Part shown: in pieces, positions 1 through 50,809 of the stretch
Position numbering within the stretch: the stretch's first letter is position 1
Layout of the letters: the number at the start of each line of letters is the position of its first letter
Source: Sphingopyxis sp.
GTDB taxonomy: Bacteria; Pseudomonadota; Alphaproteobacteria; Sphingomonadales; Sphingomonadaceae
Length of the DNA: 64,000 nucleotides
Direction of reading: 5' to 3'
Assembly (NCBI RefSeq): GCF_016793825.1
Contig: NZ_JAEULM010000044.1
Location: forward strand, 434,001 to 498,000
Translations under genes and position numbers: made by a program
The notes under the pieces: generated by a model
What the model was told of the DNA's origin: nothing
Database searches by the model: none
The model's input: the letters and a program-made list of their open reading frames with translations, nothing else

Positions 1-1
1 G

Positions 2-1672
2 GTCGGCGCCGTCGAGCTGCTGGATCGCGTCCCATGCATCCTTGTCGGACTTGGGAAGCCGCGCCTTCCAACCGGCGTGGCGTTCCTCCATCGCCTTCGC
101 CGCCGCGCTTTCCCGCAGGCCCGGCGCCTGGAACGGGAAATAGACGCGGGAAACCGACAGCTCCAGGCAGGTCTCCGTCCGCACCTGATAGAAGGTGGTG
201 AGCACCATCGCGTGCAGCACGGCGGCGAAGGCCACCGAGGGGTTCTGCGCGAAGGCGTCCTGCAGCGCGACCGTGCGGGATGCGGTCAGTTCGGCCACCA
301 GCCTGTCCGGTAGCGGCTTGATGACTTCATCGTCGTCTTCGTCGCTGTCGGTGGCGACGGGCGCGACCGCGCCACCAAGCCTCTCGGAACCCGCCTGCAC
401 GGCGATGTCCGCCGGTTCATCGCCGGTCGCCTCGATCTCCTCATCGGTCTCCTCGTCGTCGGTTTCGACGGCTTCCTCCTCCGGCTCATCCTCCGGCCGC
501 ACATAGCCGCGGTCGATGTAGAGGGTGCCGTCAGCTTCGAGGCCGACGAACACGCCGGCGCGAGCCTGCTCCTGCGCGTCGTAGGTGCGGCGACCCTGCG
601 ACAAGGCGGCCAGCTCGACATCGATGGCGGTGACGCGGGCATCGACCTCGGCCGGGACGTCGCCCTTGCCCGCCCACTGTTCCTCCAGCGCATCGGCCTC
701 GGCGCGAAGCTCGGCGATGCGGGCTTCGTCTTCCTCGGTCGGCGGCTCGCGGGTGGCTTCGATCGCGCGGCAGTCCGCGTCGTAACCATAGGGCAGATCG
801 ACCAGCGCCTCGACCCACTTCCAGCCTTCGGCCCTGATCCTGTTGGCCTCGGCGTCGAGCTTCTCGGCGACCAGGCGGTCGAGCAAGGCCGGATCGGTCA
901 GCCAGCCGCCGTCATCGGGCTCGAACAGGTCGCGCGTCGGCGCCACGCCGCCCGCCGCGAGATAGGCGTCGAGACCGACGAACCGCACGCGGGCATCGGA
1001 CATCTCCACCATATCCTCGGTCAGCTTGTCGCGGATGAAGCTGGGCGACTTGTTGATGCTGTGGTCGAGCTGCTTCCAGAGCTGCTCCTGGCGGGCATGA
1101 TCGTCGCTGACGGTGAAGGCCATGAGCTGATCGAGAGTCATGTCGCCGGCGACATAGACCTCGTGCAGCGTCGGCGAGACCGCGGCGAGCTTCAGCCGCT
1201 GACGCACCACGGCCGGCGTGACGCGGAAGTGCGCGGCGATGGCCTCCTCGCGCTCACCCTTGTCGATCAGCACCTTCATGCCGTGAAACTCGTCGAGCGG
1301 GTGGAGCGGCTCGCGCTCGCTGTTTTCCGCAAGCGAGTCCTCCTCGGCCAGGACCGGATCGTTGGCCGCCTTGACGACGCAAGGCACCAGCGCATCCTTG
1401 GCCATCCGCTTGCGCTTCACGAGGATCGCCAGCGCGCTGTAGCGGCGGCCGCCGGCGGGCACCTCGAAGAAGCCGGTTTCGGCGCCGTCGTCATCGAGCT
1501 GCGGGCGGACATTGAGGCCGTGCAGCAGGCTGCGGCGCGCGATGCTGTCGGCAAGGTTCTCGATCGTCACGCCGTTCTTCACCCGGCGGACGTTCGATTG
1601 GGACAGGATCAGCTTGTCGAAGGGAATATCCCGCGACGGGCTGAGAACGATCTTGGCGGCAGCTTTTGCCAT
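2..1672 (-). CDS. ParB/Spo0J-like nuclease-domain protein (partial, C-terminus off the window)
   Basis: About 557 residues are visible, starting MAKAAAKIVL and running open to the left edge. The ParB N-terminal domain spans roughly residues 15-115, with GGRRYSA (74-80, the GERR-type box) and the following ENSEREPLHPLDE box (about 116-128). A helix-turn-helix follows at about 138-163. The rest is a long acidic region (about residues 385-440 are very rich in Glu and Asp), unlike short chromosomal ParB. GGAG sits 7 bases before the ATG. Such long ParB-like proteins occur on alphaproteobacterial plasmids and integrative elements, where they may act in partition, regulation or as nucleases. No ParA partner is visible. 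It shares an unusual leader with the next upstream gene. Confidence 0.85.
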   Translation of the reverse strand, partial: MAKAAAKIVLSPSRDIPFDKLILSQSNVRRVKNGVTIENLADSIARRSLLHGLNVRPQLDDDGAETGFFEVPAGGRRYSALAILVKRKRMAKDALVPCVVKAANDPVLAEEDSLAENSEREPLHPLDEFHGMKVLIDKGEREEAIAAHFRVTPAVVRQRLKLAAVSPTLHEVYVAGDMTLDQLMAFTVSDDHARQEQLWKQLDHSINKSPSFIRDKLTEDMVEMSDARVRFVGLDAYLAAGGVAPTRDLFEPDDGGWLTDPALLDRLVAEKLDAEANRIRAEGWKWVEALVDLPYGYDADCRAIEATREPPTEEDEARIAELRAEADALEEQWAGKGDVPAEVDARVTAIDVELAALSQGRRTYDAQEQARAGVFVGLEADGTLYIDRGYVRPEDEPEEEAVETDDEETDEEIEATGDEPADIAVQAGSERLGGAVAPVATDSDEDDDEVIKPLPDRLVAELTASRTVALQDAFAQNPSVAFAAVLHAMVLTTFYQVRTETCLELSVSRVYFPFQAPGLRESAAAKAMEERHAGWKARLPKSDKDAWDAIQQLDGAD

Positions 1673-1757
1673 GTCGGTTACTCCATGACGAGCCGCCGCG
1701 AGACACTCTCTCGGCTATCCAGCCCGTCACGAAACCGAAGGCCCCCTCTCACTCTCT
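1673..1757 (-). promoter_or_regulatory. Shared leader, copy A (upstream of the ParB-like gene)
   Basis: Read on the minus strand, the 84 bases before the ATG have the form GAGAGTGAGAG, 14 bases, CGTGACGGGCT, 48 bases, ATG. The gene at 1788-2687 has the same two 11-base blocks with exactly the same spacings. A short hairpin, GGCT-GGAT-AGCC, follows the second block here. Conserved blocks at fixed distance, with little similarity between them, suggest a cis-acting leader RNA or a shared operator. No known family was assigned. Confidence 0.6.
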
Positions 1758-1787
1758 CCTGCGCTGCCGGGGCCGCCACGCCCGACG

Positions 1788-2687
1788 CTAGACGCCGCAC
1801 ATGCCCTCGCACTCATTGCCCCAGAGATCGAGCTGACCGCGATCGGCCGGGGTGCTGAGATCGGCTTGGTCGAGCGGCACGGCCGAGCGGTGCAGATACA
1901 CCTCGCCCCGGATGCCGCGCAGACCGGTGCGGATCGCGCGGTCCACCACGACTGCTTCGCCCCAGGCTTCGGGATCGTGATCGCGGATCTCGCGCCAGCG
2001 CATGTCGGAATGGAAAGGACAGCCGACGCAGGCGCTCTTTGGCGGGATCGGGTAGTCGTGACGTTCGAGCCACCGCAGGCAGTCGTGTCGCGACATGCGC
2101 TGCTCGATCAGCGGCCAGCGGTTGACCTGCCACGCCTCGAACGAGGGCTTCATCCGTATCAGCTCGTCGAGCGAGATGCCGATCCACTGTTCGACGACAG
2201 GATGATCGGGCGAGCGGCGGCGGGTCAGGCCGATCAGCTCGCGCACCTTCCGGCGAATGGGGACGATCTTGTAATCTTTGGTGCATTGGCGCCGGATCAT
2301 ACCGATCTCGACATGGCGACGCTTTACCGTGCGGGTGAAGGCAGGGATCGAGGCCCAGCGTTCGCCGGCGCCGGCGCGCAGCAGGTCGGCACGAATATCG
2401 CCGGCTGAGACGATATGCACCGGGAATGGCAGGACGTTCGGCGACATGAGCCAGGCGAGATGCTCGCGCACGGCGCGCGGTTCCCAGCCTGTGTCGGCGA
2501 ATATAGCGCAGTCGGGCATCGGCCCGATCTCCCCATGCGCGGCCATCAGCGCCAGCGTAGTCGATTGGACGCCCGCGCCGAGGCTGAGGACGCGCAACCG
2601 AAGCCGATCGCTAGAGGGGTTCTGGCCGAGGGTGATAAGGCCCGCTTGGTCGTAATATGCGTGGGCGGCTGTTGTGGTGAGCGCCAT
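1788..2687 (-). CDS. PAPS reductase / PP-loop ATP pyrophosphatase family protein
   Basis: The 299-residue protein has the PP-loop signature LSLGAGVQS at about 34-42, as in PAPS reductases, DndC and tRNA thiolation enzymes, which activate a substrate with ATP. Six cysteines are placed suggestively: QC135TKDYK, C203, the pair C220-VG-C223 followed by PFH, and C293/C297 near the end. The C-x2-C group could hold an iron-sulfur cluster or zinc. It is not a housekeeping cysH: no sulfate genes are nearby and it sits in the element beside the ParB-like gene. GGAGA lies 7 bases before the ATG. Similar genes occur on phages and integrative elements with unknown function. A role in nucleic-acid modification is possible but is inference only. 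Confidence 0.75.
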   Translation of the reverse strand: MALTTTAAHAYYDQAGLITLGQNPSSDRLRLRVLSLGAGVQSTTLALMAAHGEIGPMPDCAIFADTGWEPRAVREHLAWLMSPNVLPFPVHIVSAGDIRADLLRAGAGERWASIPAFTRTVKRRHVEIGMIRRQCTKDYKIVPIRRKVRELIGLTRRRSPDHPVVEQWIGISLDELIRMKPSFEAWQVNRWPLIEQRMSRHDCLRWLERHDYPIPPKSACVGCPFHSDMRWREIRDHDPEAWGEAVVVDRAIRTGLRGIRGEVYLHRSAVPLDQADLSTPADRGQLDLWGNECEGMCGV

Positions 2688-2771
2688 CGCGATTCTCCGC
2701 GACGGACCGGCAAGGGCTACTCCCTCTGCCTCGTGAGCCCGTCACGGCGACCGGGCCGGGCTCTCACTCTC
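2688..2771 (-). promoter_or_regulatory. Shared leader, copy B (upstream of the PP-loop gene)
   Basis: On the minus strand the sequence reads GAGAGTGAGAG, 14 bases, CGTGACGGGCT, 48 bases, ATG, matching copy A at 1673-1757 in both blocks and every spacing. In this copy GGGCT of the second block can pair with AGCCC about 16 bases further on; copy A pairs GGCT with AGCC at a shorter distance. The bases between the blocks differ between the copies, so this is not simply a recent duplication. Confidence 0.6.
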
Positions 2772-2880
2772 AGCGGGGGCGTTGCGGGGGCGGCAGCCGC
2801 CCGCTCGAAGGGGTAGCGGGGGACCGCAAGGGCGCCCGCTCAGGGGAAGACTTTCCCCTCCCATCAAATCCGCATCAACC

Positions 2881-2914
2881 TTGCTTCCAGATTATTTTTG
2901 ATTATATTTTAATC
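2881..2914 (+). promoter_or_regulatory. Promoter and candidate operator of the ParD/ParE pair
   Basis: An AT-rich island in GC-rich surroundings. TTGCTT (2881-2886), a 16-base spacer and TATATT (2903-2908) make a fair sigma-70 promoter. An inverted repeat GATTA-N5-TAATC (2900-2914) overlaps the -10 element. Autorepression by the ribbon-helix-helix antitoxin is the usual arrangement for this family and is inferred here. Confidence 0.5.
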
Positions 2915-2936
2915 GAGTTGATAGAAGGTGATGAAC

Positions 2937-3206
2937 ATGGCGATCGAGACAAAAGTATTGACTACGCACGTCCCGCTGCATCTCGCGGAAAAGGTGGAAG
3001 CGATGGCCTCCCGGCTTGAACGCTCGCGCGGCTGGGTGATGAAGCAAGCGCTCGCCGCCTGGGTAGATCAGGAGGAAGAGCGTCACCGGATGACGCTCGA
3101 AGCGCTGGATGATGTCGATGCCGGGCGCGTGATCGACCATCAGGCCGTGCGCGCATGGGCGGACAGCCTCGGCACCGACGCCCCGCTGCCGCCGCCTTCG
3201 GCATGA
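2937..3206 (+). CDS. ParD-like ribbon-helix-helix antitoxin
   Basis: An 89-residue protein beginning MAIETKVLTTHV. The N-terminal half fits a CopG/ParD ribbon-helix-helix: a short strand (TKVLTTHVPLHL) followed by helices around EKVEAMASRLERSRGWVMKQAL. The acidic C-terminal half would bind the toxin. I chose the ATG at 2937 because AAGG at 2925-2928 lies 8 bases upstream; the ATG at 2931 is too close. The stop overlaps the toxin start in ATGA. Expected to neutralise the adjacent ParE-like toxin and repress the operon, as in known type II modules. Confidence 0.85.
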   Translation: MAIETKVLTTHVPLHLAEKVEAMASRLERSRGWVMKQALAAWVDQEEERHRMTLEALDDVDAGRVIDHQAVRAWADSLGTDAPLPPPSA

Positions 3207-3496
3207 GGATCAAGTGGACCGGCAAGGCGTCCTCGGATCTGGTCCGGCTGCACGAGCATCTGCGCCCGGTCGCTCCGGAGGCGGCGGCGCGGGTCGTACA
3301 GCAGCTCGCGCGCGCACCGGATCGGCTGCTCGACTATCCCCGGATCGGCGAGAAGCTGGACGCCTACGAACCGCGCGAAGTCCGGCGCATCATCGTAGGC
3401 AACTACGAGCTGCGTTACGAGATAGCGGACGCGACAATCTTCATCCTGCGCCTGTGGCATTGCCGCGAGGAGCGCAGCTTCGAGTCGGACGATTGA
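3203..3496 (+). CDS. RelE/ParE-family toxin
   Basis: A 97-residue basic protein beginning MRIKWTGKASSDLVRLHEHL. It matches the ParE fold: the opening strand, a helix pair with LARAPDRLLDYPRIGEKLD, then EVRRIIVGNYELRYEI and the closing strand IFILRLWHCREER. The start codon overlaps the antitoxin stop (ATGA), so the two are co-translated. ParE toxins poison gyrase, whereas RelE toxins cut mRNA; the ending HCREER and the ParD partner favour ParE, but the target is not shown by sequence. It probably stabilises the element in the host. Confidence 0.85.
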   Translation: MRIKWTGKASSDLVRLHEHLRPVAPEAAARVVQQLARAPDRLLDYPRIGEKLDAYEPREVRRIIVGNYELRYEIADATIFILRLWHCREERSFESDD

Positions 3497-3611
3497 CGAT
3501 GAGACTGGCCGCCCGAAGCACTAGGACGCAGTGCACCGCCCTTCGCCCCTATCTGCGCTTCGCCGCGAGAGAGGCTTTGCATGAAGCGCGGGCACGACGC
3601 AGCTTGGCGGG

Positions 3612-3857
3612 ATGGCCCTTCCTCGCAAATTACGTCGCCGCCAGCCTCGCCGCTGGGCCGAAGACCTTGACGACCTTTTCGACTACACCAACCGCGTTGC
3701 GCCACGGCGGGTGTCGCGCCGGGTGCGCTGCGATGACGGCCCGATCGTCGTCACGGACGACTGGCCGGACCAAGTCCCGATCGGCGATACCGAGCTGCGG
3801 GCGATCGAAGGCCATATGCGGCTGGAGCTGGACAAGCTGTTCGGTCCGCTGCCGTGA
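3612..3857 (+). CDS. Small basic protein of unknown function upstream of the recombinase
   Basis: An 81-residue protein beginning MALPRKLRRRQPRRWAEDLD. The N-terminus is strongly basic (residues 5-14), and the middle holds RVSRRVRCDDGPIVVTDDWP. The C-terminus is LRAIEGHMRLELDKLFGPLP. It ends 18 bases before the recombinase start and so probably shares its transcript. I recognise no family. Position and charge would suit a recombination directionality factor or DNA-binding accessory protein, but no motif supports this. The ribosome-binding site is weak (GGCGGG). Confidence 0.5.
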   Translation: MALPRKLRRRQPRRWAEDLDDLFDYTNRVAPRRVSRRVRCDDGPIVVTDDWPDQVPIGDTELRAIEGHMRLELDKLFGPLP

Positions 3858-3875
3858 AGTGAGGAGTGAAGTATC

Positions 3876-5576
3876 ATGACCAGCGCCGCCCTGCGACGAG
3901 GTAAAGATGAGGCGCCGGTCGTGGCGACCGCGCGCGCCGCTCTCTACCTGCGCGTCTCGACCGGCCGTCAGGCCGATAGCGACTTGTCGATTCCCGATCA
4001 GCGCCGCCAGATCGAAGGCTATTGTCTGTCGCGCGGCTGGGAAGTCGCGGCCGAGTTCGTCGAGCCGGGCAACACCGCGACCGACGACCGCCGGCCTGCC
4101 TTTCAAGCCATGATCGACGCGGCGATGCAAAAGCCATCGCTTTTCAACGTGATCCTCGTCCACAGTTTTTCGCGGTTCTTCCGCGACCAGTTCCAGTTCG
4201 AGTTTTACGTCCGCAAGCTGGCGAAGAATGGAGTGAAGCTCGTCTCGATCACGCAGGATTTGGGCGATGATCCGATGAGCGTGATGATGCGCCAGATCAT
4301 GACGCTGTTCGACGAGTATCAGTCGAAGGAGAACGGCAAGCACACGTTGCGCGCGATGAAGGAGAATGCCCGCCAAGGCTTTTGGAATGGGGCGAGAGCA
4401 CCCATCGGCTATCGCGTGGTTGCAGCCGGGGAGCGTGGCGCGAAGATCAAGAAAAAGCTGGAGATTGACCCGATTCAAGCGGAAACGGTGCGGCGCATCT
4501 ACCGAATGGCGCTCAACGGCGTCGAAAATCGGGGACCGATGGGCCTCAAGTCGATCGCCACCTGGCTCAATGAGAACAATATCCGCACCCGCGATGGCGG
4601 GCGCTGGGGCTTGGGCGCGGTGCATCAAGTGCTCACTCGCACAACCTACATCGGGCAACACCGCTTCAACACTCGTGACCATAAAACGAAGACGCCGAAG
4701 CCGGAGAGCGAGCACGCCGTCATGGAAGTGCCGCCGATCGTCTCGGAAGCGGAGTTCGAGGCGGTCCAGCGCTCGCTCAAGGCGCGTAGCCCAAAAATGA
4801 TGCCGCCGATGGCGGTGGGCGGGCCGACGCTGCTTACAGGCATCTGCTTCTGCGCGTGCTGCGGCGGCGCGATGACGCTACGAACGGGCACAAGCAGCAT
4901 GGGCCGGGAGTATCGTTACTATACCTGCTCGACGAAGGCACGGCAGGGTTCCACCGGCTGTCCCGGCATCACCGTGCCTATGGAACGGCTCAATGAGGCG
5001 GTGGTCGATCATCTCGAAGCGCGGCTGCTCGACCCTGCACGGCTCGAAGCTCTGATGGATCAGATCCTTGAACGCCGCGACGAATGGGTAAATCACCGTC
5101 GCCAGCATGTCGCCGACCTTGAGCGGCGCGCGACCGAGGCGGAAGCCAAGCTCAAGCGGCTCTATGACGCGATCGAGAACGGCGTCATCGACGTGAATGA
5201 TTCGTCGCTCAAGGACCGCATCGCCGAACTGACCGCAACCCGCGATCAGGCCAAAGGCGATTCCGAGCGGGCGTTGGCCCATATTGTGAAGATCGGCCCG
5301 GCCATCACGCCCGAGAGCCTGCGGGCCTTTGCCGCCGCCCTGAAAAAGAAGCTGAGGAACGGCGACGGCACATTTGCGCGCGACCAGGTTCGTGCGGTCG
5401 CACAGCGGGTTGAAGTGGTCAGCCGAAAGGAGATTCGGATTCGCGGCCTGCGGAGCGAACTCCTGCGAACGCTAACCGCCGCCTCTGGCGTAGAGGCGGC
5501 GGTTCTAGGCGTTCGCAGCTTTGAACCGAAATGGCGCACCCGGAGCGATTCGAACGCCCGACCCCCAGATTCGTAG
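3876..5576 (+). CDS. Large serine recombinase (integrase) of the element
   Basis: A 566-residue recombinase. The catalytic domain has AALYLRVSTGRQ, giving the nucleophile Ser28. The Recombinase domain runs about 165-300. A zinc-ribbon follows (C324, C326, C328/C329, then C351 and C362). A coiled coil covers about 395-465. GAGGAG lies 9 bases before the ATG. It should catalyse integration and excision at an att site by double-strand breaks through a Ser-DNA link. The last 14 residues (WRTRSDSNARPPDS) are encoded antisense to the tRNA-Arg gene, so the reading frame crosses the attachment site. The C-terminal tail may therefore differ between integrated and circular forms. Confidence 0.9.
   Translation: MTSAALRRGKDEAPVVATARAALYLRVSTGRQADSDLSIPDQRRQIEGYCLSRGWEVAAEFVEPGNTATDDRRPAFQAMIDAAMQKPSLFNVILVHSFSRFFRDQFQFEFYVRKLAKNGVKLVSITQDLGDDPMSVMMRQIMTLFDEYQSKENGKHTLRAMKENARQGFWNGARAPIGYRVVAAGERGAKIKKKLEIDPIQAETVRRIYRMALNGVENRGPMGLKSIATWLNENNIRTRDGGRWGLGAVHQVLTRTTYIGQHRFNTRDHKTKTPKPESEHAVMEVPPIVSEAEFEAVQRSLKARSPKMMPPMAVGGPTLLTGICFCACCGGAMTLRTGTSSMGREYRYYTCSTKARQGSTGCPGITVPMERLNEAVVDHLEARLLDPARLEALMDQILERRDEWVNHRRQHVADLERRATEAEAKLKRLYDAIENGVIDVNDSSLKDRIAELTATRDQAKGDSERALAHIVKIGPAITPESLRAFAAALKKKLRNGDGTFARDQVRAVAQRVEVVSRKEIRIRGLRSELLRTLTAASGVEAAVLGVRSFEPKWRTRSDSNARPPDS
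5465..5516. repeat. Long hairpin between recombinase body and tRNA-Arg
   Basis: A nested inverted repeat: gcgaacgc (5465-5472) pairs with gcgttcgc (5509-5516), and aaccgccgcctc (5474-5485) pairs with gaggcggcggtt (5493-5504) around a 7-base loop. It lies in the last coding part of the recombinase gene, 16 bases from the tRNA. No T-run follows on either strand. It could be a transcription barrier between the converging genes, or a structural part of the attachment site. Confidence 0.6.
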
Positions 5577-5608
5577 TCTGGTGCTCTATCCAGCTGAGCT
5601 ACGGGTGC
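5532..5608 (-). tRNA. tRNA-Arg (anticodon ACG), probable attachment site
   Basis: On the minus strand a full cloverleaf can be drawn: acceptor GCACCCG pairs with CGGGTGC; D arm with GCTCAGCTGGATAGAGC; anticodon stem CCAGA/TCTGG around loop CTACGAA (anticodon ACG); T arm with GTTCGAATC; discriminator G, then encoded CCA (5534-5532). It reads CGN codons after wobble-A deamination to inosine. The recombinase gene ends inside it on the other strand (5574-5576), which marks its 3' half as the likely att core. Confidence 0.95.
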
Positions 5609-5652
5609 GTGGAGAGGCGCCTTTAAGGGGCCGTGCGCGGGGGCGCAACCCC

Positions 5653-6180
5653 CTATTTCAGCTTTGTGACCGTCGCGCAGGACGATTGTCGGCGTATGGC
5701 GTCAAGCTCGCCGATTTCCGAGGGATCTTTCAGCAAAAGCCGGATCAGCGCAATGCCACGGTCATGGTCCGTGCGAACGACGTCGGTGCCCGAAGGTACC
5801 GGCTGATCGGTTCGGGCCACGATGATTCGGAACGGCTTTCCACCAGCCTCGATATCGTTGCGGACGAAGATCACGTCGGTCGCAGCATCGAAGATGCTGA
5901 GCGACGTATAGCGACCCGGCACTGGCGTGACATCGATCGCCACCGGCCCTGCCGCGAGATCATAGGGGCAACTGGAATAAGCAAGGTCGGGACTGGGGCG
6001 CACGACCGGCTGACGCTCCGGCGTCGCGAGGCGGCCATAGGACATGGTATTGATCCCGCCCTGCCCCAGCCGGTCGATCGCGACGGTCATGAGGCCATAG
6101 GGAATGGCCCAGATCGCGATCCATGCAGTCGCACCGGCGACAAGGAGGCCGAGGGCGAGCGGGCCGAGCCAGCTACGCAT
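5653..6180 (-). CDS. DUF1254-type membrane-anchored protein
   Basis: A 175-residue protein with one N-terminal membrane segment (about residues 5-28), followed by an outer domain with TMSYGRLATPERQPVVRPSPD, YSSCPYDL and VPGRYTSLSIFD. The last two patterns are typical of DUF1254 proteins. The function is not established. It overlaps the end of the DUF1214-type gene by 8 bases, so the two are co-translated. In many bacteria the two domains sit in one longer polypeptide; here they are separate, each with its own anchor. It ends 44 bases before tRNA-Arg on the same strand. Confidence 0.75.
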   Translation of the reverse strand: MRSWLGPLALGLLVAGATAWIAIWAIPYGLMTVAIDRLGQGGINTMSYGRLATPERQPVVRPSPDLAYSSCPYDLAAGPVAIDVTPVPGRYTSLSIFDAATDVIFVRNDIEAGGKPFRIIVARTDQPVPSGTDVVRTDHDRGIALIRLLLKDPSEIGELDAIRRQSSCATVTKLK

Positions 6181-14971: not shown

Positions 14972-15864
14972 AACATGTCCGGACCATCCCCGGCCGGCAT
15001 GGGGGTCGTCGCTTTGCGGCGGCCCTTTTGCCGTTGCTGCTGGCGGCATGCGGCGCAAGACCCGCGACCGAGGCGCGGCCCGCCATGTGGCTGGTCGAGG
15101 ATGCGGACACCTGCATCTATATGCTCGGAACCATGCACGCGCTGCCAGCGGGTACCGACTGGAACCGCGGCAAGGTCGCCGAGGCGGCGAATGCAGCGGA
15201 CGAACTGATGCTTGAACTGTCGCCAGAGCAGCTTGCCGAGGCCGGAGCAGTGTTTCAGAAGCTCGCTCCGCGCGACAAGCCGCTCGCGATGGAGGCGCGG
15301 CTGCCCGCCAAGGCACTCGCCGCCTATCGCAGGCTCGAAGGCGGAAGCGATTTCGGCAGCGACAAGCTCGACGATTGGGCCATATTGGTATTGATGGGGC
15401 AGAAGGTCGCGGCCGAAGCCGAGCTGTCGCCGGCAGCGGGGGTGGAAGCGGGACTGACCGCGACTTTCCGTGCTGCGGGCAAGCCGATCTCGGGGCTCGA
15501 AAGCGCCAAGGCGCAGTTGATGCTGTTCGAAACGCTGGACGCAGCGACGCAGCGAACATTGCTTGTCCGCGCAGCCGATAACATCGACCATGCGCAGAGC
15601 GACGTCGATGCGATGGCCAAAGCCTGGTCGCGCGGCGACGCCGATGCGCTCGCGAAGGTCGTCAACGAAGACGTCGACCGCGTCCCAGCCGCGCGCAAGG
15701 CGATCATCACCGACCGCAACCGGCGCTGGAGCGAGTGGGTGAAGCGGCGCATGGACAACCCCGGCACGGTATTGATGGCGGTTGGCGCCGGCCATCTGGT
15801 TGGACAGGACAGCCTGCCGGCGATGCTCGAAGCCGAAGGGCTGACGGTGAGACGAGTGCAATAG
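14968..15864 (+). CDS. TraB/GumN family lipoprotein, second of a tandem pair
   Basis: A 298-residue paralogue of the preceding gene, starting at a GTG that overlaps the previous stop (GTGA). A lipobox LLAACG around residue 28 marks it as a lipoprotein. The core motifs match: CIYMLGTMHALPAG, ELMLELSPEQ, GKPISGLESAKAQL, RNRRWSEWV, GTVLMAVGAGHLVGQDS. Both copies keep the GS/T-x-H and GAGHL active-site segments, so both are probably active. Co-translation suggests they work together or on related substrates in the periplasm. Confidence 0.85.
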   Translation: MKHVRTIPGRHGGRRFAAALLPLLLAACGARPATEARPAMWLVEDADTCIYMLGTMHALPAGTDWNRGKVAEAANAADELMLELSPEQLAEAGAVFQKLAPRDKPLAMEARLPAKALAAYRRLEGGSDFGSDKLDDWAILVLMGQKVAAEAELSPAAGVEAGLTATFRAAGKPISGLESAKAQLMLFETLDAATQRTLLVRAADNIDHAQSDVDAMAKAWSRGDADALAKVVNEDVDRVPAARKAIITDRNRRWSEWVKRRMDNPGTVLMAVGAGHLVGQDSLPAMLEAEGLTVRRVQ

Positions 15865-16698: not shown

Positions 16699-17268
16699 AT
16701 GCAGCTTTGGGTTGGCCTGGGCAATCCCGGACCCCAATATGCGATGCACCGGCACAATGTCGGCTTCATGGCCGTCGATGTCATCGCCGACATGCATGGC
16801 TTTCCCGCTCCGACCAAGAAATTCCAGGGGTGGATTCAGGATGGGCGCATCGATGGCGACCGCATCCTGCTCCTCAAACCCGGCACCTTCATGAACGAAA
16901 GCGGCCGCAGTGTGCGCGCCGCACTCGATTTCTACAAATTGACGCCGCAGGATGTCACCGCCTTCTACGATGAGCTCGATCTCGCACCGATGAAGGTCAA
17001 GGTGAAGCGCGGCGGCGGCGCGGCCGGCCACAACGGCATCCGCAGCATGATCCAGCATATTGGCGACGATTTCCGCCGCGTGCGCATCGGCATCGGTCAT
17101 CCGGGACACAAGGACCGTGTCACCGGCCATGTCCTTGGCAATTATCACAAGAGCGAAGTCGAACCGCTGACCGACCTGCTGGGTGCAATCGCGGCCGAGG
17201 CGACGTGGCTTGCCGATGGCGACGACGTACGTTTCCAGAACGACCTTGCACTCCGCCTGAACGGCTGA
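16699..17268 (+). CDS. pth: Peptidyl-tRNA hydrolase
   Basis: A 189-residue enzyme that frees tRNA from stalled peptidyl-tRNA. It shows the family signature MQLWVGLGNPGPQYAMHRHNVGFMAVD, whose HN-VG holds the catalytic His20 equivalent, then KPGTFMNESGRSV, the DELDL segment, and KRGGGAAGHNGIRSM. I chose the ATG at 16699, directly before the conserved VGLGNPG, over an earlier in-frame ATG. It lies downstream of rplY, a usual neighbour. Confidence 0.95.
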   Translation: MQLWVGLGNPGPQYAMHRHNVGFMAVDVIADMHGFPAPTKKFQGWIQDGRIDGDRILLLKPGTFMNESGRSVRAALDFYKLTPQDVTAFYDELDLAPMKVKVKRGGGAAGHNGIRSMIQHIGDDFRRVRIGIGHPGHKDRVTGHVLGNYHKSEVEPLTDLLGAIAAEATWLADGDDVRFQNDLALRLNG

Positions 17269-20959: not shown

Positions 20960-21706
20960 ATGTCGAAGAAAGCCAAGAGCGCCACTCTTTATCGCATGGT
21001 CATGCCCGGCCATGTCTGCCCCTATGGCCTGAAGGCCAAGCATCTGCTCGAAAGCCGAGGTTTCGCAGTCGATGATCATTGGCTGACGACGCGCGCAGAG
21101 ACCGACGCCTTCAAGGCCGAGCAGGACGTCAAGACCACGCCCCAGACCTTCATCGATGGCGTGCGCATCGGCGGACACGACGATCTTCGCCGTCATTTCG
21201 GCCTGAAGGTCGCCGACCCGGATGCGGCGAGCTATACGCCGGTGATCGCCCTCTTCGCGATGACGGCGCTGATGGCGCTCGCCGCAAGCTTCGCGGTGGA
21301 CGGGAATGCCTTCACGACCCGCGCAGCCGAGTGGTTCATTTCGTTCAGCATGATCGTCCTCGCGCTGCTCAAGCTTCAGGATCTCGACAGGTTCGCAACG
21401 ATGTTCCTGAACTATGACCTGCTCGCGCGCCGCTGGGTTCCCTATGCCAGCCTCTACCCTTTCGCCGAGGGGCTGGCGGGCGTGCTGATGACCGCGCGAG
21501 TCCTTCCATGGTTGTCGATCCCCGTCGCGCTGTTCATCGGCGGCATCGGCGCCGTATCGGTGTTCAAGGCGGTCTATATCGACAAGCGCGATATCAAATG
21601 CGCCTGCGTCGGCGGCAGCAGCAAGGTGCCGCTTGGCTTTGTCTCGCTGACCGAAAACCTGATGATGATCGCGATGGCGCTGTGGATGCTGCGGATGGGC
21701 CTGTGA
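20960..21706 (+). CDS. Glutaredoxin-MauE/DoxX-like membrane fusion protein
   Basis: A 248-residue protein. The N-terminal glutaredoxin domain (about 1-85) has MPGHVCPYGLKAKHLLESRG with a CPYG redox motif, and TTPQTFIDGVRIGG with the cis-Pro. Four membrane segments follow (about 97-115, 126-143, 172-190, 195-212), plus one near the C-terminus, as in MauE-type proteins. Between them is DIKCACVGG, a CxC that could take part in electron or metal transfer. MauE-like proteins support disulfide formation in partner proteins. The ATG at 20951 lies inside the -10 element, so I use 20960. Confidence 0.8.
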   Translation: MSKKAKSATLYRMVMPGHVCPYGLKAKHLLESRGFAVDDHWLTTRAETDAFKAEQDVKTTPQTFIDGVRIGGHDDLRRHFGLKVADPDAASYTPVIALFAMTALMALAASFAVDGNAFTTRAAEWFISFSMIVLALLKLQDLDRFATMFLNYDLLARRWVPYASLYPFAEGLAGVLMTARVLPWLSIPVALFIGGIGAVSVFKAVYIDKRDIKCACVGGSSKVPLGFVSLTENLMMIAMALWMLRMGL

Positions 21707-50432: not shown

Positions 50433-50483
50433 GGGCCGGGCGGCAGGCAATTCCAACGGACATCGTACCCTGCCGCCCGGCCC
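50433..50483 (-). promoter_or_regulatory. Expression-platform hairpin of the Mn2+ riboswitch
   Basis: A perfect 15-base inverted repeat, gggccgggcggcagg (50433-50447) with its complement at 50469-50483, separated by 21 bases. It lies between the aptamer and the ribosome-binding region (CCCCGGAG, about 16 bases before the ATG). It could block the ribosome or act as a terminator, to be released on Mn2+ binding. No T-run follows, which favours control of translation. Confidence 0.65.
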
Positions 50484-50499
50484 GGACAGAAGGTTCGAT

Positions 50500-50610
50500 G
50501 CCATTGGTCTCGCCCAAACGGTCTCCCGTTTCCACCGCACCACGGCCTCTCGACCGAGTATGTTGACGCGATGGCCCGTCCCTGACGGACGGCTGGCTAC
50601 TCCCCAGATG
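50500..50610 (-). promoter_or_regulatory. yybP-ykoY manganese riboswitch
   Basis: On the minus strand the conserved aptamer parts occur in order: GGGGAGTAGCC (50605-50595), a hairpin (GCCGTCC/GGACGGG), GTCAACATAC (50567-50558), a variable stem and GGGCGAGACC (50515-50506). GGGGAGUAG and GUCAACAUAC are the two loops that form the Mn2+ site in this riboswitch class. It precedes a TMEM165/GDT1 gene, a known member of the regulon. The first conserved block contains the TAG stop of the upstream lipoprotein gene. Confidence 0.92.
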
Positions 50611-50809
50611 ACGCAGGCGGGTTAGACGCCTTCGCGGGTGCTGGCAAGCTCGAAGCGGCGGCTGCCTTTTCGGATTCGGCGATGTCCGCATCCATCGCCT
50701 TCGCCCGAAGCTCGATATCCTTTGCCGCCTTGTCGTAGCGTTCGTCGAACGACGGTGCCTCGTGACAAGCGGCGAGCAGGAACGGCAACAGAACGACGAG
50801 CCGACGCAT
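50597..50809 (-). CDS. Small lipoprotein downstream of tamB
   Basis: A 70-residue protein beginning MRRLVVLLPFLLAACHEAP; the lipobox LAAC gives a mature N-terminal Cys15. The mature part is a short charged helix (FDERYDKAAKDIELRAKAMDADIAESEKAAAAS) with a Pro/Ser tail. The ATG shares a base with the tamB stop. Its own TAG stop is part of the GGGGAGTAGCC block of the Mn2+ riboswitch. Function is unknown; being in the tam operon suggests an envelope role. Confidence 0.75.
   Translation of the reverse strand: MRRLVVLLPFLLAACHEAPSFDERYDKAAKDIELRAKAMDADIAESEKAAAASSLPAPAKASNPPASSGE

Follow-up and report, generated by a model that had tools for sequence, protein, structure and literature searches.

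How anti-restriction genes are switched on when a conjugative element enters a cell is known for some systems, which use a repressor or single-stranded-DNA promoters, and is open for others such as EGeRS1, according to the cited part of PMC8708921. In that account, F and ColIb-P9 use single-stranded-DNA promoters for their anti-restriction genes, and the Frpo/ssi promoters of F-type plasmids are described as acting as DNA on the entering strand (cited parts of PMC8708921 and PMC11541004). EGeRS1, from the Bacillus pLS20 family, consists of conserved, structure-forming sequences directly 5' of the ribosome-binding sites of establishment operons, including that of ardC; the same part of PMC8708921 gives its size as ~400-750 bp, its hosts as Bacillus plasmids (pLS20 family, pBS72) and its mechanism as unknown. 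Two further elements are described in the cited part of PMC2864571: the radC RNA motif (RF01754), a Proteobacteria candidate tabulated as RNA ('Y') and cis-regulatory ('y'), and STAXI, a repeated pseudoknot with frequent UUCG tetraloops near antirestriction, SSB and integrase genes, for which single-stranded DNA was considered. Among the descriptions found here, and as far as the cited part of PMC8708921 goes, EGeRS1 is the nearest published parallel to the leader that we report. In both, a structured sequence that is conserved lies immediately before the ribosome-binding sites of several establishment genes within one conjugative element; compared by description and not by sequence, our leader differs in its length of 90 nt, its two-helix core, its AGAG motifs, its measured covariation and its occurrence in Alphaproteobacteria.

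The window, i.e. the whole stretch of 64,000 nucleotides that was analysed, contains two strong copies of this leader with the following features:

Positions 1-1672, minus strand: ParB-like gene, 717 aa, start codon at 1670-1672; it leaves the window at the left end and is whole in locus L119.
Positions 1666-1758, minus strand: leader copy 1, 5' of the ParB-like gene (73.5 bits with covariance model R1; exact blocks).
Positions 1746-1756, minus strand: AGAG-N2-AGAG block of copy 1, GAGAGTGAGAG (sequence; exact blocks).
Positions 1721-1731, minus strand: 5' strand of stem P1 of copy 1, CGTGACGGGCT (exact blocks; predicted fold).
Positions 1695-1715, minus strand: inner hairpin P2 of copy 1 (predicted fold).
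Positions 1684-1694, minus strand: predicted 3' strand of P1 of copy 1, GGCTCGTCATG, ending on the first G of the Shine-Dalgarno GGAG (1681-1684).
Positions 1788-2687, minus strand: PP-loop (PAPS-reductase-like) gene, 299 aa (phrog_424).
Positions 2681-2773, minus strand: leader copy 2, 5' of the PP-loop gene (71.2 bits with R1; exact blocks).
Positions 2761-2771, minus strand: AGAG-N2-AGAG block of copy 2 (sequence; exact blocks).
Positions 2736-2746, minus strand: 5' strand of P1 of copy 2, again CGTGACGGGCT (exact blocks; predicted fold).
Positions 2698-2708, minus strand: predicted 3' strand of P1 of copy 2, GGTCCGTCGCG, ending on the first G of the Shine-Dalgarno GGAG (2695-2698).

A preliminary description of this DNA had reported that both genes are preceded by the same two blocks at identical distances, with differing bases in between, and this holds in every detail. 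The arrangement GAGAGTGAGAG-N14-CGTGACGGGCT is matched exactly at 1721-1756 and 2736-2771 (both minus strand) and at no other site in the window with spacers of 10-20, and it is absent from all of 100 dinucleotide shuffles of the window. In both copies 48 bases separate the second block from the ATG, the first base of which lies at 1672 and 2687 (minus strand), respectively. Across the 52 contigs of the genome (spacers of 5-30) the exact blocks are confined to the same two sites; the covariance model adds a third copy, which has diverged and stands 5' of another ArdC gene on contig C36 (L108:7966-8056, plus strand).

The predicted folds of the two copies agree: stem P1 has 11 bp, a bulge of 5 nt lies on the 5' side, and P2 forms the inner hairpin. 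P1 is formed by CGUGACGGGCU with GGCUCGUCAUG or GGUCCGUCGCG: its 5' strand is identical in the two copies and its 3' strands differ, both being fully paired, partly via G-U. The small stem that had been proposed earlier, between GGCT of the second block and a later AGCC, differs from the conserved stem; in the two folds GGCT forms the inner end of the 11-bp stem and the later AGCC sits in the inner hairpin. Taken singly, the two copies have only a moderate folding advantage over shuffles (z of -2.15 and -1.91, with 6 and 7 of 200 shuffles folding equally well), so that the claim of a conserved structure rests on a comparison of relatives.

Such relatives are numerous. The pattern CGTGACGGG-N25-45-CGTCRYGGAG occurs in 17 of 385 Alphaproteobacteria genomes, with one control match in all; 29 of its 31 matches are leader-like and two (L020, L023) are not. 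Scanning genome contigs for an exact pattern yielded 14 loci, including ones from Sphingomonas, Mesorhizobium, Bradyrhizobium, Reyranella and Yoonia. The covariance model R1, built from 46 sequences, has 59 matching places in the Alphaproteobacteria set (27 of 385 genomes); within the window's own family it is found in 67 of 298 genomes, with up to 10 matches per genome. From two other R1 match lists, opposite-strand echoes of real sites (two and two) were removed. In a phylum-wide sample 35 of 398 genomes have a match, 34 of them in the same class, and the 35th (27 bits, before an ABC-transporter-like gene) is probably a chance match. BLAST against 72,556 plasmid records returned 131 that match the ArdC leader together with the upstream block described below, and 128 that match the ParB leader; more than half of these records (76/131 and 77/128) are typed as non-mobilizable, and the genera named among the matches listed are ones that we take to be Alphaproteobacteria. 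An initial plasmid search, for which the entire region served as query, mostly returned the PP-loop gene and was set aside. The leader is absent from viral contigs (exact pattern) and from phage records (BLAST), and no description of it was found in the titles and abstracts of the open-licence papers listed, including listed ones that contain the string CGTGACGGG. In total, 280 distinct leader matches were collected (290 before identical copies were merged), 17 of which score below 35 bits, one of these being probably a chance match. The earlier suggestion that the two window copies belong to a family of cis-regulatory leaders used by genes of the element, which would have been contradicted by a lack of further copies or by copies seen only in longer duplicated DNA without conserved spacing, is thus supported: copies that keep the architecture are abundant in related elements.

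This raises the question as to whether the conserved unit is an RNA or a DNA site, which the preliminary description had left as alternatives. A MAFFT alignment, not fitted to the model, has two-sided changes in 8 of the 19 pairs, every one of them in P2; P1 was held fixed by the pattern behind most of the first seeds. Among 147 distinct leaders (from the best 150 of 198 matches), 96.9% of cells are paired and 13 of 19 pairs are two-sided, including 5 of 11 in P1, in an alignment that is fitted to the model and leans to its structure. The two-sided cells in this set number 140, compared with a mean of 37.4 after shuffling (reached in 0 of 500 shuffles) and at most 33 when the partner strand is slid. 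Compensatory changes therefore accompany a conserved secondary structure, as is expected of a cis-regulatory structured RNA. In 59 leaders of less than 80% identity, the hairpin pairs comprise 895 Watson-Crick, 183 G-U, 19 A-C and 21 other combinations (1118 cells). Since a coding-strand G-U pair corresponds to an A-C mismatch on the opposite strand, this asymmetry indicates that it is the coding strand whose fold is kept, as would be the case in RNA. Hence, judged from sequence comparison, the hairpin most likely acts as RNA and not as a DNA operator, and of the two options named earlier the first is strengthened by covariation that includes many coding-strand G-U pairs.

The same numbers bear on two readings of the leader as DNA. 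It could be an operator, i.e. an inverted repeat bound in double-stranded form by a regulator such as a ParB-like protein: its arms form inverted repeats, such sites are found at several genes within a single element, that element also codes for a ParB-like protein, and the neighbouring upstream block does look DNA-like. However, G-U has no meaning in double-stranded recognition and yet makes up 183 of the 1118 cells in P1 and P2 against 19 for A-C, and 275 of 280 leaders lie in sense orientation at the same place before a start codon, so that we consider an operator very unlikely. An Frpo-like single-stranded promoter, used on the entering strand, would fit the kind of gene served, as the anti-restriction genes of F and ColIb-P9 use such promoters (cited part of PMC8708921) and our leader also precedes anti-restriction genes, along with other early genes of conjugative elements. 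Frpo-like elements combine a fold of the template strand with promoter hexamers, whereas the leader is RNA-like on the coding strand; an entering template strand would be antisense, and the G-U/A-C asymmetry has the coding strand folding. In addition, there are no promoter-like hexamers at 1600-3100 and the fold ends in a Shine-Dalgarno sequence, which together leave this reading with hardly any probability.

The place of the leader relative to the gene is as constant as its fold. The start codon is at the model's ATG in 275 of 280 leaders (273 ATG, 2 GTG), a number that is helped by the model's own ATG. Geometry was measured in sets of 193, 229 and 266 of the 280 leaders: GGAG lies 7-9 nt from the start codon in 261 of 266, and the linker between the AGAG block and P1 is 13-16 nt long in 193 of 193, with 15 nt in 127. 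The parts that are conserved are, from 5' to 3', AGAG-N2-AGAG, the linker of 13-16 nt, the hairpin with an AGAGG-type loop, and a 3' strand that runs into the Shine-Dalgarno GGAG. For the 189 of 280 leaders with an exact block and GGAG, the mean unpaired probabilities predicted for the four Shine-Dalgarno bases are 0.04, 0.04, 0.38 and 0.24, versus 0.22, 0.30, 0.64 and 0.62 when the 5' part is shuffled. The first two bases are thus predicted to be nearly fully closed, more so than in the controls, and the Shine-Dalgarno sequence is paired within the conserved fold in these predictions. For the start codon itself, pairing does not exceed that of the controls (unpaired 0.51 vs. 0.43).

A stable hairpin directly 5' of a Shine-Dalgarno sequence can also merely insulate the ribosome site. 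The leader would then be a constitutive hairpin for mRNA stability with a portable ribosome-binding site, and would not regulate; the near-fixed geometry to the start codon and the recurrence on unrelated genes agree with this, as does the fact that a trans factor was not found. What such an insulator leaves unexplained is the predicted pairing of the Shine-Dalgarno bases and the conservation of the AGAG-N2-AGAG block, whose AGAG positions hold 1.7-2.0 bits each and which equals P1 in conservation (59 leaders of less than 80% identity), and we therefore regard it as unlikely. In the same 59 leaders the AGAGG loop of P2 has 1.0-2.0 bits. The exact block is present in 217 of 280 leaders, and model R1, containing the block and the ATG, favours matches that carry them. 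In the predicted folds the block is partly paired, with a mean unpaired probability of 0.52 (189 of 280 leaders).

Two additional pairings were considered and rejected. An outer helix P0, formed by the linker with bases before the ATG and closing over the start codon, appeared strong in a first test (46 leaders, 0 of 10,000 permutations) and was dropped after a strict one, in which near-duplicates were removed, permutation was within gene classes and 111 of 229 leaders were kept. The overall z was -2.7 (17/5000), and by class 0.03 for ParB, -2.5 for DUF932, -2.0 for ArdC and -1.2 for the others. The idea that the AGAG block pairs with the CUCU side of P2 was discarded on alignments judged by eye, in which the block is constant and the CUCU strand varies.

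The comparison with Rfam that had been suggested as a check was carried out, and no family reaches its gathering threshold at the window leaders or in the relatives' loci searched. With release 15 (4227 models, presumably including STAXI) there is no match at the leaders in a search of the whole window, nor up to an E-value of 5 in a search of window positions 1-6000; 20 relatives' loci gave 11 matches up to an E-value of 10, none at its family's gathering threshold, and six further loci gave none at gathering score. The radC RNA model (149 positions) has no match at window positions 1-6000 up to an E-value of 5, and genome-wide up to an E-value of 10 it gives 16 weak matches among the 150 of 363 candidates that were scored, all of them short of the cut-off and away from the leaders; in this respect, the window leaders differ from the radC RNA. 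With STAXI, as presented in the cited part of PMC2864571, they share a structured element near antirestriction-type genes, but STAXI has tandem pseudoknots and UUCG loops, whereas the leaders are single, non-tandem hairpins with AGAGG-type loops (alignments judged by eye). A metabolite riboswitch or RNA thermometer would account for a conserved bulge and loop near a sequestered Shine-Dalgarno sequence. Against this, the identified target genes have no evident common pathway or transporter set, there are two short helices only and no junction, and Rfam gives no match in the window or relatives' loci searched, making this class of explanation highly improbable. Elsewhere in the window, the manganese (yybP-ykoY) riboswitch model matches positions 50438-50620 (minus strand) with 46.7 bits, compared with a gathering score of 45.

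Similarity clustering of the genes behind the 280 leaders gives 120 ParB-like, 59 DUF932-like, 52 ArdC and 12 of a 185-aa family, followed by helicases (5), PP-loop genes (4), a 174-aa family (4) and smaller groups; nine leaders without a product of at least 40 aa were left out of the clusters. These names rest on one representative each. ArdC is identified by ArdcN and MPTase-PolyVal matches, the ParB-like protein matches NCBIfam TIGR03734 (7.3e-15) and TIGR00180 (9.2e-10), both below cut-offs, and DUF932 is matched below the Pfam cut-off. The PP-loop protein matches phrog_424, phosphoadenosine phosphosulfate reductase, at 1.5e-47, and has no Pfam match. The joint control of leader-bearing genes that was proposed for the window pair is a reasonable inference.

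In our reading, the window leaders are part of an integrative conjugative element. Leftward of the window there are genes for VirB8, CagX, TrbL, TrbE/VirB4-type and T2SSE-type ATPases and a coupling protein, as well as a DUF3363/MobA-type relaxase, a signal peptidase and SSB. A large serine recombinase is encoded at 3876-5576 of the window; its reading frame runs into a tRNA-Arg on the other strand (to 5608), and this overlap is possibly the attachment site of the element. For the far end, no match of more than 15 bases to window positions 5481-5660 was found within 60 kb leftward. Between the PP-loop gene and the recombinase there is a pair of genes resembling an RHH antitoxin and a ParE toxin (2928-3496). 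Besides its two strong R1 leaders, the element carries two diverged ones (29.2 and 19.3 bits; E-values of 1.3e-5 and 0.012), which precede a 174-aa gene and a strawberry-notch-type helicase. The plasmids pCHQ1, pMLb and pYP1, all of them typed as conjugative, have a module in common in which R1 leaders precede ArdC-type and ParB genes and a helicase and a toprim protein follow further along.

Two further sequence elements accompany the leaders, the first of them also in the window:

Positions 2780-2858, minus strand: second conserved block with three inverted repeats, upstream of leader copy 2 (alignment; covariation).
Locus L119, positions 15475-15580 and 17051-17154, minus strand: type-2 leaders; locus L239, positions 21031-21130, plus strand: type-2 leader (before helicase and 174-aa genes).

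The upstream block precedes the first gene of many modules, including the PP-loop gene of the window. It is found, whole or as a fragment, before 56 of 280 leaders (ArdC 31, DUF932 19, PP-loop 4, ParB 1, other 1). Its exact pattern has one match in the window's genome and occurs in 8 of 12 chosen leader-bearing genomes and 0 of 8 genomes without leaders, with no control match; in G853 the block is ~270 bases from the nearest leader and does not adjoin it. For alignment, 39 of 55 blocks were used (40 were obtained by regular expression and one, far from its leader, was left out). The middle repeat covaries in these 39 copies, with 7 of 8 pairs two-sided and cells divided into 288 Watson-Crick, 1 G-U, 6 A-C and 17 other; by comparison, G-U makes up 128 of 648 P1 cells. 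Because its covariation is nearly pure Watson-Crick, the upstream block looks like a DNA site, and on this sequence evidence it is probably an operator, a partition site or a single-strand origin.

The type-2 leader lies upstream of helicases and has AGAG-N2-AGAG and a hairpin region containing GAGAG, with other stems and with CTCTC before the start. Its 18 sites came from a pattern demanding AGAG, GAGAG and CTCTC, so that the presence of these motifs proves nothing alone, and among six single folds one has a z of -4.8 relative to shuffles and the others range from -1.5 to +0.2. We treat it as a lead, and not as proof, for a second structural type of the family; if that is right, the AGAG elements would be the common denominator of the leaders.

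Taken together, we think it probable, with some reserve, that the leader is a translational control element common to the establishment (anti-defence) genes of alphaproteobacterial conjugative elements. It would be a structured 5'-untranslated RNA of ~90 nt that ends at the start codon and in which AGAG-N2-AGAG, the 13-16 nt linker, P1, the short bulge and P2 would be followed by a GGAG with its first two G's paired at the base of P1. The folded leader would keep the ribosome-binding site closed, and a putative trans-acting factor would read the AGAG elements of the block and the P2 loop and set the balance between the closed and open states. Transcription, translational repression, the trans factor and the timing are parts of this scheme that we infer; for transcription this is because no sigma-70-like consensus promoter was found at 1600-3100, where no terminators were found either. 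As ArdC, ParB-like, DUF932-like, PP-loop and other genes all carry this leader, several of them on one conjugative element, they may constitute one establishment regulon at the RNA level that would act at entry into a new cell. A more specific version, which we put forward tentatively and hold to be rather doubtful, is a zygotic switch. In cells that already hold the element, the factor would bind AGAG-N2-AGAG and the AGAGG loop and keep the leaders closed; in a fresh recipient it would be absent, resulting in one burst of translation. If true, the establishment regulon as a whole would be defined by one RNA code that comes in two or more structural types. The leader would offer a compact and recognisable RNA handle on the establishment regulon across Alphaproteobacteria, and may serve as a marker for establishment genes of unknown function such as those of the DUF932-like, 185-aa and 174-aa families.
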